Below, in pieces: positions 2,950-11,194 of a stretch of 64,000 nt of DNA. The notes below the pieces were generated by a model, which worked only from the letters and a program-made list of their open reading frames with translations, was not told the DNA's origin and did not search any database. The position numbers were made by a program, and so were the translations under genes. Each line of letters starts with the position of its first letter. Position 1 is the stretch's first letter. The stretch is taken from positions 1-64,000 of the forward strand of contig CAJVZZ010000016.1 of NCBI GenBank assembly GCA_913020435.1. Direction: 5' to 3'. This DNA comes from an uncultured Flavobacteriales bacterium. Lineage in GTDB: Bacteria > Bacteroidota > Bacteroidia > Flavobacteriales_G > Salibacteraceae.

Positions 2950-3212
2950 TGTTTCTTTATTGAAACATTATGAATCATAGCAGCTGTAATTTGCTCGCTC
3001 TTTTCAAATTGTATTTCCTGTTTTTACTAGTATCAGATTCTTTTAATAAACCTTCTAAATGTCTATGTCATTTTTGATATGACAAGTTTATTGCTCAAAT
3101 AAACTTGACTATGCGATAATTTACAATCAAAAAACTGTTTTACACAGGCGGAAATAGATTTAATTAATCATTCAATTTATGAGCATTTAAATCCTGTTTA
3201 TCAATTGGTTAA

Positions 3213-3270
3213 ACAAAAAAATAGGTTTATTAAATACTCCATTAATGCAGCGCATTCAATAAACCTACTC
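3213..3270 (-). terminator. Rho-independent terminator of the split-oxidase operon
   Basis: On the minus strand GTAGGTTTATT pairs with AATAAACCTA across a loop of about 27 bases and is followed by seven T. It lies 17-74 bp past the stop codon of the 391-residue cupredoxin protein. Confidence 0.7.
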
Positions 3271-3286
3271 CGGCCAAATTATTCTT

Positions 3287-4462
3287 CTATTTTTTTATAA
3301 TGCTACTAGAATTAGTACCGACTTTTAGAACATAGATTCCAGATTCTAAGTGGTTAATATCAATCACTTGTTTTGAAGACTCAATACTTCCCTGCAACAC
3401 TGTTCGGCCAAGCATAGATGTAATTGCAAACTCTACTGGCTGTACAAAGCTATTCTCAATGGTCAATACATCCAGCACTGGATTCGGATAAGTGCGAATT
3501 GAGGTTTGCTGAGCTGTTGCTTCTGCTGGCAATGTTTCATCAATGCCAAAAACAACCTCTTCCGCATGCACTTGCTTTCCTGTAAACATATGCAGATAGT
3601 TTATCTTTATGCTACGCTGCGCACTGCCCAAGGGCGAAAGCATTACTCCATAGCGTTCCCCTGGTGTAAGATACAGGCTATCAATAGTTTTTTTAGTCGG
3701 GAGCGGTCTTCCATCAGATGTGATCAAGGTGGCGGTTAATCCAGCTGGAAATTGGACCAAATTTTCGAAGTAACCTACATTGGAAAGTCGAATAAAAACA
3801 TTTTCATCAGAACGTGCCATCAGCGTATCTATCTGCTGCTGACTTTGTCCATTTACAAAGAAGTAATCGGGTTCGTATACAGGCAGGTTAAATTTGGCAT
3901 GAACCGAGTCTCCTGTAGAATGTTTGGGTTTGTTATCAAACCACGATTTGTCTGCTTCTGACATCAATAGATTAAAGTCTCTACCGTAAAAATAACCGGG
4001 AGCAGCTTCTCGATCTTTCGGCTCAACTATAAAGCTCCCATACATTCCCAATTGAACGTGCAACACACTGGCTACATGACAATGGTATAAATACGTTCCA
4101 GCATGAGTAGCAACGAATTCATACTGCTTAGTTTCTTTATGCGGAATAACAAAACTGGTAGCTGGCACTCCATCGTTAGCTTGATCGACATCCAAACCAT
4201 GCAAATGAATCGTATGGGGTGCTCCTTGCGACTGATTTCGAACATTTAATCGCACCTTTTGGCCTTGTTTAACTCTTAACGTAGGACCTGGAATTGAAGG
4301 CCTTCCAGCACCAAGCGTAAATCCGTAGTTCTTAATTGTCAGACCGTCATGCAATTGATGCAATCCTGTGGTCCACATCCAGATATTAAAAGAAGTGTCT
4401 GCTTGACCGTAACTGTTTGAAACTACAAATACAGCTAAAAGTGCTACCGTTATTCTCTTCAT
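3287..4462 (-). CDS. Multicopper oxidase-type cupredoxin protein, subunit with type 1 Cu site, T9SS-sorted
   Basis: 391 residues: signal peptide (about 1-19, ending YGQ), a cupredoxin domain (about 25-150), a second cupredoxin-like domain (about 155-305) and a T9SS sorting tail (YPNPVLDVLTIEN to the C-terminal IIKK). The first domain carries H86-L-H88-G and H127-C128-H129 with H135 and M140, i.e. two of the four HxH motifs of a trinuclear copper centre plus Cys, His and Met ligands of a type 1 site. The second domain has no HxH. The missing two HxH motifs are in the gene immediately upstream, whose TAA overlaps this ATG by one base (TAATG). A secreted or surface copper oxidase is likely; the substrate is unknown. 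It could instead be a nitrite reductase-like fold, but the HxH count argues for an oxidase. Confidence 0.85.
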   Translation of the reverse strand: MKRITVALLAVFVVSNSYGQADTSFNIWMWTTGLHQLHDGLTIKNYGFTLGAGRPSIPGPTLRVKQGQKVRLNVRNQSQGAPHTIHLHGLDVDQANDGVPATSFVIPHKETKQYEFVATHAGTYLYHCHVASVLHVQLGMYGSFIVEPKDREAAPGYFYGRDFNLLMSEADKSWFDNKPKHSTGDSVHAKFNLPVYEPDYFFVNGQSQQQIDTLMARSDENVFIRLSNVGYFENLVQFPAGLTATLITSDGRPLPTKKTIDSLYLTPGERYGVMLSPLGSAQRSIKINYLHMFTGKQVHAEEVVFGIDETLPAEATAQQTSIRTYPNPVLDVLTIENSFVQPVEFAITSMLGRTVLQGSIESSKQVIDINHLESGIYVLKVGTNSSSIIKK

Positions 4463-5334
4463 TACTTAATATCTAATACCATAAATATTCCGTTAGGATA
4501 TTTCCCTCCTCCAGATACAGCGATCAAATTATGATCGTGAACCGGGTAAAAACCTGGTTTATCTGGAACCAATAACAATATGAGTCCATCGCCAGCTTCC
4601 AACGGAAACGTGTCCTTGGAGCATCCTTTCTGTACGCGTTTAGAGGTTACTTCTTGAGCAAGACAATGGTATCCGTGAAAATGAATGGAGTGATTAACGT
4701 TTCCTGTATTGGTCAGCATAATGAGTATAGATTCTCCTACAGCGCCTTTTACGTTGGAGGCTGCATCGCCTACCAGTTGATCCTTACCTAGCCCATTTAC
4801 CATAAAATAATCGGGATAATAAGTACTCCAATCTACCGATTTTCCTGAATCAAGTTGAAGCACTTTCTGGGATTCGAAATCCTTTAAATTCCAATAAAAC
4901 GTAGATTTTACAGCATCACTTTGATTGGTAATTATCAACATGCCAGCTGCTCCCCAAAGATCGATTTGTTTGCCTGACTTACCAGCTAAATAGATATGAA
5001 TTCCAGCTTTTAGAGCGTGCAGTGTGACTTGTTCTGTAGCTCCAGCTGCAATAGTTCTATTGATTGAAAAATCTGTTAGAACAAACTCTTGGACATCTGC
5101 CGTATTGTTCATTACAGAAAGCACAAGGCTATCCCCTATTACTATTTTTAACCGTTCATTAGTCTGACCAAATACGGTATCCGCATTAAATGCGTAATAA
5201 GGAACCTGAACCGAATCTACAGTCAACAGCTCACCCTTATTGAGAACGATTTTCTGATGGATTATACTCGCATAGCTAAGTTGCGATAGCTGCAACGAAA
5301 AAACAAGTATTCCAAGGATTTTTATCAAATTCAT
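4462..5334 (-). CDS. Cupredoxin-domain protein carrying HxH motifs III and IV (partner of a split multicopper oxidase)
   Basis: 290 residues with a signal peptide (to about 22). The N-terminal cupredoxin-like half (about 28-137) lacks copper ligands. The C-terminal half has H218-F-H220-G near 218 and H266-D-H268 near 266, matching the HxHG and HxH motifs of a multicopper oxidase C-terminal domain, but without the type 1 Cys/Met. No T9SS tail is present. It is translationally coupled to the downstream 391-residue protein, which supplies the other two HxH motifs and the type 1 site. I infer that the two assemble so that all eight histidines meet at a domain interface, as happens between subunits of two-domain oxidases. 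Confidence 0.8.
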   Translation of the reverse strand: MNLIKILGILVFSLQLSQLSYASIIHQKIVLNKGELLTVDSVQVPYYAFNADTVFGQTNERLKIVIGDSLVLSVMNNTADVQEFVLTDFSINRTIAAGATEQVTLHALKAGIHIYLAGKSGKQIDLWGAAGMLIITNQSDAVKSTFYWNLKDFESQKVLQLDSGKSVDWSTYYPDYFMVNGLGKDQLVGDAASNVKGAVGESILIMLTNTGNVNHSIHFHGYHCLAQEVTSKRVQKGCSKDTFPLEAGDGLILLLVPDKPGFYPVHDHNLIAVSGGGKYPNGIFMVLDIK

Positions 5335-5353
5335 AGTCCTATTCCTTAATGCA

Positions 5354-6073
5354 TTAAGGTTTTATAATCCGTGTTTGATACGCAGCTCCATCTGCTGTAT
5401 TAATCTCTAGCATATACATTCCTGAAGGAAGTTTACTACTGTCAATTTCAACAAACTCCTTAGACTCATAAAGCGATGATTTTTTTATAGTTCTTCCATA
5501 GGTATCCAAAAGTTTCCATGAATATTTAGCATCCTTGAATTCTATATTAAACTGATTTGAAATCGGATTTGGGTATACACTAAATTGAGCAGCGTTATCC
5601 AAATCATTTACTGAGCCTGGTCCCTCCACTGGTTTTTTATCCGTTTCACTTGCATGAAAAATAAACTCTAAAGTATCTCTAAAAGTAGAATCGCTAACAT
5701 CAAAAAATTCAATTTTTAAGCTACAATCTTTAGGAATGATGCCTGCTTCAATAGCTAAATTGGTAATCAATACTTCTTCATTCGCTGCAATTGTATCAGT
5801 AATTCCACCTTCTGGAATGTAGGTTAGACATTCCGGATACGTACAAAATAAAATAAACCAGTTAGCAGTATCAATTGAGTTTTCTACTATGCGGTAGTTT
5901 ATCACCATTTTATTAGTGGTGTTATTTTGAAGTTTAACCGATTCGTCGAAATATCCATTTATGTACAAACTGTCTTCAATGATGCTGTCAGAAAGTGTAA
6001 AAGATTGAGAATAAGCTTTTATTCCAATAAACAGAACTGAAAGCATCAACAAACTTTGTATCGTTTTTTTCAT
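5354..6073 (-). CDS. T9SS-sorted secreted protein of unknown function
   Basis: 239 residues: signal peptide (about 1-22, ending AYSQ), a beta-rich central domain of about 120 residues with paired cysteines (FCTYPECLTY), and a clear T9SS type A sorting domain from about 160 (VYPNPISNQFNIEF to TRIIKP). I do not recognise the central domain. It is the first gene of a three-gene minus-strand operon, 19 bp upstream of the two cupredoxin genes, so it may be a partner, copper-binding or anchoring component of the split oxidase (inference from position only). Confidence 0.75.
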   Translation of the reverse strand: MKKTIQSLLMLSVLFIGIKAYSQSFTLSDSIIEDSLYINGYFDESVKLQNNTTNKMVINYRIVENSIDTANWFILFCTYPECLTYIPEGGITDTIAANEEVLITNLAIEAGIIPKDCSLKIEFFDVSDSTFRDTLEFIFHASETDKKPVEGPGSVNDLDNAAQFSVYPNPISNQFNIEFKDAKYSWKLLDTYGRTIKKSSLYESKEFVEIDSSKLPSGMYMLEINTADGAAYQTRIIKP

Positions 6074-6589
6074 ATTATTATTTTTTAAATTGATTATTAC
6101 GATGCTCTAGTCTAAGTTTTCATAAGAATATCTGTAATTATCGTTTGAACTAAAGAGTTTCAGCATACCAAATTACATTTTATTGAGGAATAAAAAAGAA
6201 GACTATTTGTTGTAATACGATACTAAACCACTATAAACGAATGAATTAGTAAAAACAACATTTTATTAAATTGAAAGTTTTCGTCTCGTTAGCTCTACTA
6301 ATATCAATAGTCAATACACTTAATTAGAGTAAAAGTTCAGAAACCTAAACTTTATTTACTGTAATTTTTTTAAGCAAAACCTAAAAAGCAAAGAGCTTCA
6401 ATCGAACAGAATGCATTTGCCTGTGATTATTTCTTCAGACTCATACGATTCTAATATTTACAAGAAGTAAAGTGCAGAGCAACTAAGATCCAATAGCATA
6501 CAATATCAACTCATCAATTATTCGAATTTAATATTCCTAATGCGCAGGTAGCATTTGATGATTCATCAATCAATATAAAACCTGATGAT
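6074..6589. other. Gene-free stretch upstream of the split-oxidase operon
   Basis: About 515 AT-rich bases. No frame of note and no repeat or hairpin was seen. The promoter of the oxidase operon should lie close to 6073 but no convincing -33/-7 pair could be assigned. Confidence 0.4.
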
Positions 6590-6911
6590 TCAATACTTTC
6601 GCGGACACATATGGCCAGTGGTATTCCCAGCTATCAGCATTCCCCACGTGCGGCTCTCATTTACGATACCTCCCCAAATTTTGTGCGCTTCCCACATGCG
6701 GTCATAGGCTTGATTGTTTTTAAAACCAACATAGAAAGCAACCGCTGTACCTACCACAGAAATAGGTAGCCAAGGAATAGCAAAGGAATAGCAAAGGTTA
6801 TTATTTTGAAGTGGTATAAGCATGCTACAGACCCCATTAATACAGTCATCCAAACGATATGGTGGTAGGACCACTCAATTTTTTAATACTAATTCCCTTA
6901 TTGATTAACAT
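6590..6911 (-). pseudogene. Bestrophin-family channel pseudogene
   Basis: The conserved bestrophin block FYVGFKNNQAYDRMWEA followed by KIWGGIVNESRTWGM is intact, but the gene is broken. From a plausible ATG at 6909-6911 (MLINKGISIKK) the frame shifts at a run of six A (one base short), runs as IEWSYHHIVWMTVLMG, then shifts again at an 11-bp tandem duplication of TTTGCTATTCC (about 6780-6805). It stops after about 100 residues (GNTTGHMCPRKY), whereas intact bestrophins have about 300, so the C-terminal two thirds are gone. It lies 24 bp after the stop of the membrane-protein gene upstream and was probably in its operon. Confidence 0.75.
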
Positions 6912-8075: not shown

Positions 8076-9575
8076 ATGAGTAAGCTCGTCCGATCTCAAA
8101 TTAATATTGTATGGATAAAACGCGATTTGCGCTTATCTGATCATGCTGCTATTTCAGCAGCTGAAGGAACTAACCTACCCTACTTATTACTGTATGTTTT
8201 TGATCCAAAACTAATTATGCATCAGGAAGTAAGCCTACGTCATTTACAGTTTTGCTGGCACTCAATTCAAGTGATGAATACTTCCTTAACACCACTCAAT
8301 AGACAAGTTGAAACTTGCTACGGAAATTCGTTGGAGGTATTTGAATTTATTCAAGAACGTTATGAAGTTCAGCACGTATTCTCCTACAGGGAAAGTGGAG
8401 TTCAGCTTACATGGAATAGAGATAAAGAAGTTGGAAAATATTTCCGAAAACTAGGTATAGTTTGGCTTGAGTATCAACAAAATGGTGTTTTACGCGGAAT
8501 CGAAAACCGCAAAGGATGGGATACTGCTTGGTACACATACATTAACAAGCCATCAATTAATGTACAACCCTCAGTAGCTCCAGACCTGGATTTAAATCAC
8601 CCTTTTCAACTTCCTAATGAACTAAAGGAGAGCTGGTCGGACTACCCTGCCGATTTTCAACCTGCAGGTGAAGTATACGCTTGGAAATATTTAAGGTCTT
8701 TTGCTGATGAACGGGGTAAAAACTATGCACGACACATATCGAAACCACAACAAAGCCGTTTATCCTGCGGCCGCATTTCACCCTATTTGGCATGGGGTAA
8801 CCTTAGTATTCATCAGGCCTGCCATTACATTAGAAACCATTCAAACTACGATTCAAACAAGCGCGCTTTTCAAGGTATTTTAACACGACTTAAATGGCAC
8901 TGTCACTTTATTCAAAAGTTTGAAGTTGAATGTACCTATGAAAATGAGTGCATTAATAAAGGTTATGAGACTTTGGAGCGTCCACTCAATGAAAAGCGAA
9001 TTAAAGCATGGGAAAACGGTTTGACAGGCTACCCGTTAATCGATGCTTGCATGCGCTGCGTGAAACAAACGGGTTGGATTAATTTCAGAATGAGAGCAAT
9101 GGTAGTCTCGTTTTTGTGCCATCACCTCGATCAAGACTGGAGAACTGGGGTGTATTATCTAGCGAATCAGTTTTTGGACTTTGATCCGGGCATTCATTAC
9201 CCTCAATTTCAAATGCAGGCTGGTACAACAGGCATTAATACCGTAAGAATTTACAATCCAATAAAACAATCGAAAGATCATGATCCAGAAGGAAATTTCA
9301 TAAAAAAATGGGTTCCAGAGCTCGAACCTGTGCCTATTCCATTTATTCACGAACCATGGGAAATAACGGTTTTTGATGTGTCAGAAGATATTTTTCAATT
9401 GGGAGTGGATTATCCCTACCCAATTGTGAATTTGGAAGCCAGCGGAAAGCTCGCAAGGGCTAAGATTTGGGGACACAGAAAAAATGAAACCGTAAAAATA
9501 GAGAATCAGCGGATTCTCCAAACCCATGTCAGACCTAGTAAACCAAGAAAAAAACCAAAGAATGAAAAAACGTAA
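8076..9575 (+). CDS. Cryptochrome/deoxyribodipyrimidine photolyase family protein
   Basis: 499 residues. The N-terminal Rossmann domain starts with [14 protein letters not shown] and carries the antenna-binding half. The C-terminal FAD domain shows the family landmarks [44 protein letters not shown] and [20 protein letters not shown], then [18 protein letters not shown]. It is expected to use blue light via FADH- to split cyclobutane pyrimidine dimers, or to act as a sensor; sequence alone does not decide. Its 3' end overlaps the DUF2256 gene by 14 bp, followed by a second, distantly related photolyase. Ends with a basic tail (PRKKPKNEK). Confidence 0.93.
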
Positions 9576-9709: not shown

Positions 9710-11194
9710 ATGTCTGAAGTTTCCATTGTCTTTCCTCACCAGCTTTTTCAAAACGCTGAAGCGCTCAACAAAATCAGGCCGATTTACTTAGTGGAGGAGT
9801 TTCTGTTTTTCAAGAAATACAATTACCACAAACAAAAGCTTGCTTTTCATCGAGCGAGCATGAAAAGCTACGAATTAAATTTAAAATCAGCAGGTTACGA
9901 TGTAAACTATATTAACACTCCTGATCCAAACTCCGATATTAGAAATCTAATTCAATACTTGTTTCATGAGGGGGTAAAAACGATTTATTTGACAGATCCT
10001 ACTGATAACTGGCTGTCTAAAAGAATAAACGAAAGTGCTATTAAGTGTGAAATTAACATTCAACAGTTTGAGAGTCCTCTTTTCATTAATTCTAAAGAAG
10101 ATTTGGCTTCTTTCTTTAGGTCAGACAAGAAAAAATTCTTTCAAACTTCCTTTTATAAAAGCCAGCGCAAAAAGTGGAAAGTTCTAATTGAAGACAATGA
10201 TGAACCCACTGGAGGCCAATGGTCTTTTGATGCCGATAATAGAAAAAAATACCCTAAAACCAAAACACCTCCAGCAGTTCATTTTCCAGTAACAAATTCC
10301 ATTTGGAAAGAAGCGGTAAGTTATACGAATGAGCATTTTTCAGACAACTTAGGAAGCCTAAACAACTATCCTATTTACCCCTTCTCAAATGAGAGCGCAT
10401 CCAATTGGCTCAAACAGTTTTTTGAGCAGCGCTTTCATGAATTTGGAGACTACGAAGATGCTATTGTCCAAGAAGAGCTTATACTCCACCACAGCCTGCT
10501 CTCACCGCTTATTAATACTGGATTACTTCATCCAAAAGAGGTGATTGAAGCGGCAGTAAAGTCTGCTAATAGTTATGACGTTCCGCTTAATTCAACGGAA
10601 GGGTTTGTTCGGCAAATATTGGGTTGGCGAGAATTTACAAGGGGAATGTATGAGGTAAAAGGAAGCTTTTCTAGAACTCGAAACTTTTGGGGTTTTAAAC
10701 GAAAAATTCCAGCTTCTTTTTATACGGGTACTACTGGAATTTTGCCAGTAGATACTGCTATTAAAAAAGTGCTTGAAACTGGCTATTGTCATCACATTGA
10801 ACGGCTTATGGTTTTAGGCAATTTTATGCTCTTGTGCCAATTCGATCCAGACGAAGTTCATCGATGGTTTATGGAATTGTTCATCGACGCATACGATTGG
10901 GTAATGGTGCCGAATGTTTATGGTATGAGCCAATTTGCAGATGGAGGAACTTTCGCCACCAAACCCTACATCAGTGGATCGAATTACCTGCGTAAAATGA
11001 GTAATTATCCAAAAGGAGATTGGGAAGCTATTTGGGATGGATTGTTTTGGAATTTTATGGATCAAGAGCGCGAATTTTTCCTTTCCAATCCCCGCTTGAG
11101 TATGTTGGTTCGGAATTTTGATAAGCTGACCCCAGACAAGAAGGAGGCTCATCTGCAAAACGCCGCTGCTTTCTTAGATAAATTGGATGGATAA
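9710..11194 (+). CDS. PhrB-like (FeS-BCP family) photolyase lacking the FeS-cluster cysteines
   Basis: 494 residues related to prokaryotic (6-4) photolyases of the PhrB / deoxyribodipyrimidine photolyase-related family: N-terminal VFPHQLF, an FAD domain with EGFVRQILGWREFTRGMY, HHIERLMVLGNFMLL, YDWVMVPNVYGMSQFADGG and ATKPYISGSNYLRKMSNY. In PhrB the MSNY motif is followed by CxxC and, about 12 residues later, a further Cys before PFN; here it reads MSNYPKGDWEAIWDGLFW, with no Cys and a shortened loop. The fourth ligand region (PVDTAIKKVLETGY) also lacks Cys. So the 4Fe-4S cluster is very probably absent. Third gene of the photolyase operon. Confidence 0.9.
   Translation: MSEVSIVFPHQLFQNAEALNKIRPIYLVEEFLFFKKYNYHKQKLAFHRASMKSYELNLKSAGYDVNYINTPDPNSDIRNLIQYLFHEGVKTIYLTDPTDNWLSKRINESAIKCEINIQQFESPLFINSKEDLASFFRSDKKKFFQTSFYKSQRKKWKVLIEDNDEPTGGQWSFDADNRKKYPKTKTPPAVHFPVTNSIWKEAVSYTNEHFSDNLGSLNNYPIYPFSNESASNWLKQFFEQRFHEFGDYEDAIVQEELILHHSLLSPLINTGLLHPKEVIEAAVKSANSYDVPLNSTEGFVRQILGWREFTRGMYEVKGSFSRTRNFWGFKRKIPASFYTGTTGILPVDTAIKKVLETGYCHHIERLMVLGNFMLLCQFDPDEVHRWFMELFIDAYDWVMVPNVYGMSQFADGGTFATKPYISGSNYLRKMSNYPKGDWEAIWDGLFWNFMDQEREFFLSNPRLSMLVRNFDKLTPDKKEAHLQNAAAFLDKLDG

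Follow-up and report, generated by a model that had tools for sequence, protein, structure and literature searches.

A putative multicopper oxidase with its copper ligands divided between two paralogous proteins encoded by adjacent genes in Bacteroidota

Two adjacent genes on the minus strand of the window, the 64,000-nucleotide stretch of DNA that was analyzed here, were found to encode two cupredoxin proteins, A and B, which carry complementary halves of the copper ligands of a multicopper oxidase (MCO). Judged from sequence, A and B are predicted to form an obligate heteromeric, active enzyme of type C-like character, and a probability of about 0.84 was given to this reading. The enzyme is probably displayed on the cell surface and linked to copper. 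The gene pair is arranged as follows.

3287-4462, minus strand: gene of protein A (391 aa), with a Sec-type signal, cupredoxin domain 1, domain 2 and a T9SS type A tail
4462-5334, minus strand: gene of protein B (290 aa), with a Sec-type signal and cupredoxin domains 1 and 2, and no sorting tail
4460-4464, minus strand: TAATG junction, in which the stop codon TAA of B and the start codon ATG of A have base 4462 in common

Gene B lies upstream and is translated first (5334 to 4462), followed by A (4462 to 3287), and the sequence of the junction is ...ATTAAGTAATGAAG... Both open reading frames were recovered with base 4462 in common, which agreed with the one-base overlap (TAATG) noticed in the preliminary description, and translational coupling of B and A at this junction is likely. 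Among 80 loci of relatives, the two genes overlapped by 4 bases in 48 and by 1 base in 13 (61/80 together), and the spacing in nearly all remaining loci was between -14 and +9 bases.

The domains and copper ligands of A were assigned by Pfam search and by alignment to 3g5w, and were located at the following positions.

4043-4216, minus strand: ligand block of A in domain 1, with the positions of its eight ligands
4214-4216, minus strand: H83
4205-4207, minus strand: H86
4199-4201, minus strand: H88
4076-4084, minus strand: H127-C128-H129
4058-4060, minus strand: H135
4043-4045, minus strand: M140
3526-4012, minus strand: domain 2 of A (residues ~151-312), a cupredoxin fold without copper ligands
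3287-3490, minus strand: T9SS C-terminal sorting domain of A (residues 325-391)

Cu-oxidase_3, Cu-oxidase_2 (above cutoff), Cu-oxidase and Por_Secre_tail were matched by A in Pfam. By the alignment, H83, C128, H135 and M140 were assigned to the type 1 copper site, and H86, H88, H127 and H129, which constitute HxH motifs I and II, to one half of the trinuclear site, so that the type 1 Cys is placed between two cluster histidines. Inspection of the translation confirmed motifs I and II where they had been proposed (H86/H88 and H127/H129); Cys128, His135 and Met140 had also been named correctly as type 1 ligands, while H83, which stands within HTIHLHG and is by position the fourth of them, had been overlooked. 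Two cupredoxin domains with the type 1 copper site in the N-terminal one are the arrangement of type C two-domain MCOs. In domain 2 of A, a conserved SDGR...PGER motif occupied the place of the copper ligands. The type A sorting domain was detected with 49.5 bits (cutoff 27), which identified A as T9SS cargo. No T9SS tail was detected in B by Pfam, as expected from the earlier claim that just one of the two proteins has one, and the PNP signature near the C terminus was present in 77/80 relatives of A and 0 relatives of B.

The ligands of B were all located in its second domain.

4531-4692, minus strand: ligand block of B in domain 2
4690-4692, minus strand: H215
4681-4683, minus strand: H218
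4675-4677, minus strand: H220
4666-4668, minus strand: H223
4537-4539, minus strand: H266
4531-4533, minus strand: H268

In Pfam, Cu-oxidase_2 was matched above cutoff at the C-terminal end of B and Cupredoxin_1 below threshold at the N-terminal end. Domain 1 of B was a cupredoxin without ligands, and domain 2 carried motifs III and IV, in which H218, H220, H266 and H268 make up the other half of the trinuclear site; the translation contained these two motifs exactly as first described (H218/H220 and H266/H268). Each protein was thus found to include one ligand-free cupredoxin-like domain, as had been suggested, namely domain 2 in A and domain 1 in B. The eight histidines in four HxH motifs that define the MCO superfamily were present in A and B jointly and in neither alone, and in all relatives domain 2 of A and domain 1 of B were devoid of ligands, so that no single polypeptide held the ligand set of a type C enzyme.

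The origin of this complementarity was approached by profile comparison. A and B were matched end to end by hhalign (99.3%, 227 columns), and the matches between A domain 1 and B domain 1 (96.9%) and between A domain 2 and B domain 2 (98.4%) were both above every crosswise match. Single-chain relatives with every ligand were found in Deinococcus ficus (P0004) and Halomarina (P0009), and in a joint alignment with these type C MCOs, A matched in domain 1 and was blank in domain 2, while B showed the reverse. On these comparisons, A and B are full-length paralogues, each of which appears as a two-domain MCO minus the opposite half of the ligands. The preliminary description had proposed one MCO split into two polypeptides; the conserved, inseparable and complementary pair was confirmed, but the hhalign result indicated paralogous two-domain proteins rather than one gene cut in the middle. 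The nearest solved structures for both A and B were the two-domain MCOs 3g5w and 2zwn. Two-domain MCOs are trimers in which the trinuclear cluster is situated between domain 1 and domain 2 of the next protomer, and in type C the type 1 copper is in the N-terminal domain (PMC13151041). Because two-domain MCOs build their cluster between protomers, A domain 1 with B domain 2 is the composite site to be expected here.

Joint structures were predicted as single-chain B-A models at 1:1, for which the B stop codon was read as Gln as a modeling device that implies no readthrough; this was possible because A and B share a reading frame in three relatives. Two AlphaFold2 models were obtained, model 1 from L032 (588 aa; pLDDT 89.2, pTM 0.90) and model 2 from L064, which is 37% identical to L032 (pLDDT 88.8, pTM 0.89). 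Over about four domains, the B-A models aligned to ceruloplasmin, coagulation factors V and VIII and MnxG, with TMq of 0.63-0.68 to ceruloplasmin/MnxG (best 0.66 for model 1 and 0.68 for model 2); at a TM of ~0.66 and an rmsd of ~7, the ceruloplasmin match denotes a similar, not an identical, arrangement. One half of the B-A model alone gave a TMt to 3g5w of 0.74 (model 1) and 0.72 (model 2). The single-chain models thus confidently predicted a common arrangement of A and B, with the A signal peptide left in as a linker that could bias the chains towards contact. Convergence of the eight histidines would follow from homology to the trimeric two-domain MCOs. In a rough covariation analysis, of the 40 A-B pairs with the strongest signal, 17 fell in A domain 1/B domain 2, compared with about 8 expected from a share of 21%.

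A search for the same gene pair elsewhere, which had been proposed as a check, was carried out with a profile of B on a set of genomes, one for each species; 158 relatives were found and 80 were kept. The titles of their records referred to Flavobacteriales, Crocinitomicaceae, Saprospirales, Cytophagales, Aureispira, or unspecified Bacteroidetes/bacteria. A was directly downstream of B in 80/80 kept loci, including one locus where a frameshift joins the two in a single ORF. The eight ligands of A and the five tested histidines of B were invariant in 79-80 of the 80, the single exception being a contig end, and the ligand block of B was unchanged in 80/80; since the mean identity among relatives is just 46% for A and 41% for B, this invariance reflects selection and not recent descent. 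In the family of the source organism (35 genomes), A and B occurred side by side in 18 genomes, neither in 17 and one alone in 0. A search with the A core returned strong matches in the same 18 B-holding genomes and none in the other 17, and two further weak matches lay in frames ~568 residues long, as expected for ordinary MCOs. The pair was missing from 2 of the 3 other genomes of the genus, and an order-level search gave the same distribution again. In a phylum-wide sample of 396 evenly drawn genomes, it was present in the source genome and missing from the other 395, and it is patchy in this sense, as just 1/396 carries it. Recurrence of the pair across many Bacteroidota makes it look like a real two-part enzyme. 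Two copies of the gene pair (L010 and L027) were carried by one genome, G008.

Pairs were also found outside Bacteroidota. The alphaproteobacterium Indioceanicola profundi has the pair on two plasmids (L110 3860-6099; L111 3755-6071), where B is annotated as hypothetical protein and A as multicopper oxidase domain-containing protein. Its B had a twin-arginine-like N terminus, its A was without a hydrophobic N terminus, and the T9SS tail was on neither; these signals suggest that A is carried by B, which fits export as one complex. On a plasmid of Arthrobacter sp. FW305-BF8 (L115 2689-5036), the frame of B extends into the beginning of A without an intervening signal peptide, and A continues in another frame after a frameshift just before HTIHWHG, due either to a pseudogene or to a sequencing error. 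Although the record is frameshifted, a fusion that keeps the B-A order speaks for A and B as a single functional unit. Paenarthrobacter aurescens TC1 has an intact B; its A is present only in fragments, at a distance of several kilobases.

Based on these findings, a route to the enzyme and its mode of action may be proposed. An ancestral type C two-domain MCO gene would have been duplicated, whereupon A retained the type 1 copper and four cluster histidines of domain 1 but no ligands in domain 2, and B retained the four histidines of domain 2 but no ligands in domain 1. The trinuclear cluster would be located at the interface of B domain 2 and A domain 1, which corresponds to the contact between protomers in homotrimeric two-domain MCOs. 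Electrons from a reductant would enter the type 1 copper of A and travel along H127-C128-H129, the His-Cys-His bridge, to the cluster, which would reduce O2 to water. Both proteins would be exported by Sec, and the tail of A would then take the complex via the T9SS to the cell surface. The gene pair, the complementary and invariant ligands, the co-occurrence, the paralogy and the confident single-chain models were observed here; complex formation, copper occupancy, activity, co-export and substrate are inferred. As each paralogue has half of the ligands, the complex must be heteromeric and without three equal active sites, and its stoichiometry is a puzzle because a ring of three two-domain units is not evenly fillable by A and B; possible solutions are a ring of A-A-B or A-B-B with one cluster, or a closed pair of A and B. 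As for the substrate, a copper-related role such as Cu(I) oxidation at the surface is our best guess, albeit a tentative one, and phenol, Fe(II) or Mn(II) are possible alternatives. A more speculative proposal, to which we would give about one chance in three, is that the only oxygen-reducing centre lies between oppositely degenerated paralogues and that the tail-less B crosses the outer membrane folded, as a passenger of A via the T9SS, and that the reverse applies in Alphaproteobacteria, where a signal-less A would be carried by a Tat-exported B.

Alternatively, A and B might act separately, with A as a type 1 blue-copper electron-transfer protein at the surface, perhaps a homotrimer, and B as an accessory protein for copper binding or loading, without a common cluster. 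A complete two-domain fold in each protein, a full type 1 site in A alone and a T9SS tail on A only would all be in line with this, but electron transfer has no need of H86, H88, H127 and H129, which are nevertheless invariant, like the four matching histidines of B. Together with the perfect co-occurrence, the Arthrobacter fusion and the confident joint models, which argue for one enzyme, this renders separate action improbable. Still less probable is a copper nitrite reductase like NirK, in which the interface would bind a type 2 copper rather than a trinuclear cluster. NirK is a two-domain cupredoxin trimer with, as in A, the type 1 copper in domain 1, and weak matches to TIGR02376 were obtained (A 65 bits, B 24 bits), but these are far under its cutoff of 296 bits. 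NirK has a single His beside the type 1 Cys and takes one His from domain 2, for one type 2 copper in place of the eight-histidine cluster, whereas His-Cys-His was found in all A relatives and two full HxH motifs in B; membership of A/B in NirK was rejected on both score and ligands. That a single MCO gene was broken by a frameshift, or that the likeness is due to chance, can be practically dismissed. The genes do touch, and in one relative (L016/L068) both fall into one open frame; against this, A and B each have a separate start codon, a signal and two complete domains, and the pair is kept in 80/80 loci. The ORF of L016/L068 (3944-6013) was likewise rejected as a natural B-A fusion: its two frames are connected by an indel within a run of eight G, and the A signal peptide is still present in the interior, which makes this ORF a trap for fusion searches.

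Compared with known systems, the predicted A/B enzyme has the fold and ligand pattern of type C two-domain MCOs, such as the blue copper oxidase of Nitrosomonas europaea (3g5w) and the metagenomic 2zwn, in which domain 1 carries the type 1 site together with motifs I-II, domain 2 carries motifs III-IV, and the cluster is expected between protomers. The difference is that one polypeptide is used three times in type C, and two paralogues with half of the ligands each are used here. The joint B-A model matches about four domains of the six-domain MCOs (ceruloplasmin, MnxG), which have a single trinuclear site per ring. In bacterial six-domain MCOs, this site is between domains 2 and 3 (PMC3600357). 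In B-A order, the interface of B domain 2 and A domain 1 corresponds to that position, but six-domain MCOs are one chain of six domains with type 1 copper in domain 2, whereas A/B comprise four domains on two chains with type 1 copper in the counterpart of domain 3, and do not belong to that class. Coagulation factors V and VIII have a ceruloplasmin-like arrangement on two chains, as here; their chains come from proteolysis of one precursor, and they are not oxidases. The fungal laccase POXA3 is called heterodimeric, but its small subunit is no cupredoxin ligand donor and the large subunit has all coppers.

MCOs are divided into enzymes of two, three or six domains, and in every class a single kind of chain supplies all of the ligands. 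No description of the A/B family was found in the open-access literature searched, and one may exist elsewhere; the family seems to be unnamed and the two-part enzyme is apparently undescribed. If our reading is true, an obligate two-gene MCO would be a fourth architecture, of four domains, and a clear natural case of duplication and complementary loss within one active site. It would be relevant to the rise of one-cluster six-domain oxidases from symmetric trimers and offer a simple test of the co-export of folded complexes by T9SS or Tat.

The neighborhood of the pair was also evaluated, and a further gene, X, was located upstream of B.

5354-6073, minus strand: gene X (239 aa), separated by 19 bases from B on the upstream side of B; its product has a T9SS tail and the motif W-x4-C-x4-C

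No named domain besides the T9SS tail was detected in X. An ORF of similar size was directly upstream of B in 58/80 loci, with W..C-x4-C in 50/59 sequences, and by these features X is a probable third gene of the operon. No match to Rfam was obtained in 3000-6600, and promoter and terminator scans performed no better than on shuffled sequences. Near the pair in relatives, MbnP-like proteins (19 loci), MbnH/MauG-like di-heme enzymes (21), HYC_CC_PP (12) and CopZ-like proteins (5) were encoded, by family names taken from one representative per cluster; in this window, the pair had no copper genes of these kinds (MbnP, MbnH/MauG, HYC_CC_PP or CopZ-like) next to it. Downstream of the pair, at 777-2378, a gene for a C-5 cytosine DNA methyltransferase was found. 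On the other side of the pair, a bestrophin remnant of ~60 profile positions (6590-6874), after which all three frames contain stops, resembles a pseudogene, and further on two adjacent genes (8076-9575 and 9710-11194) were judged by sequence to encode DNA photolyase/cryptochrome-like proteins of different classes.
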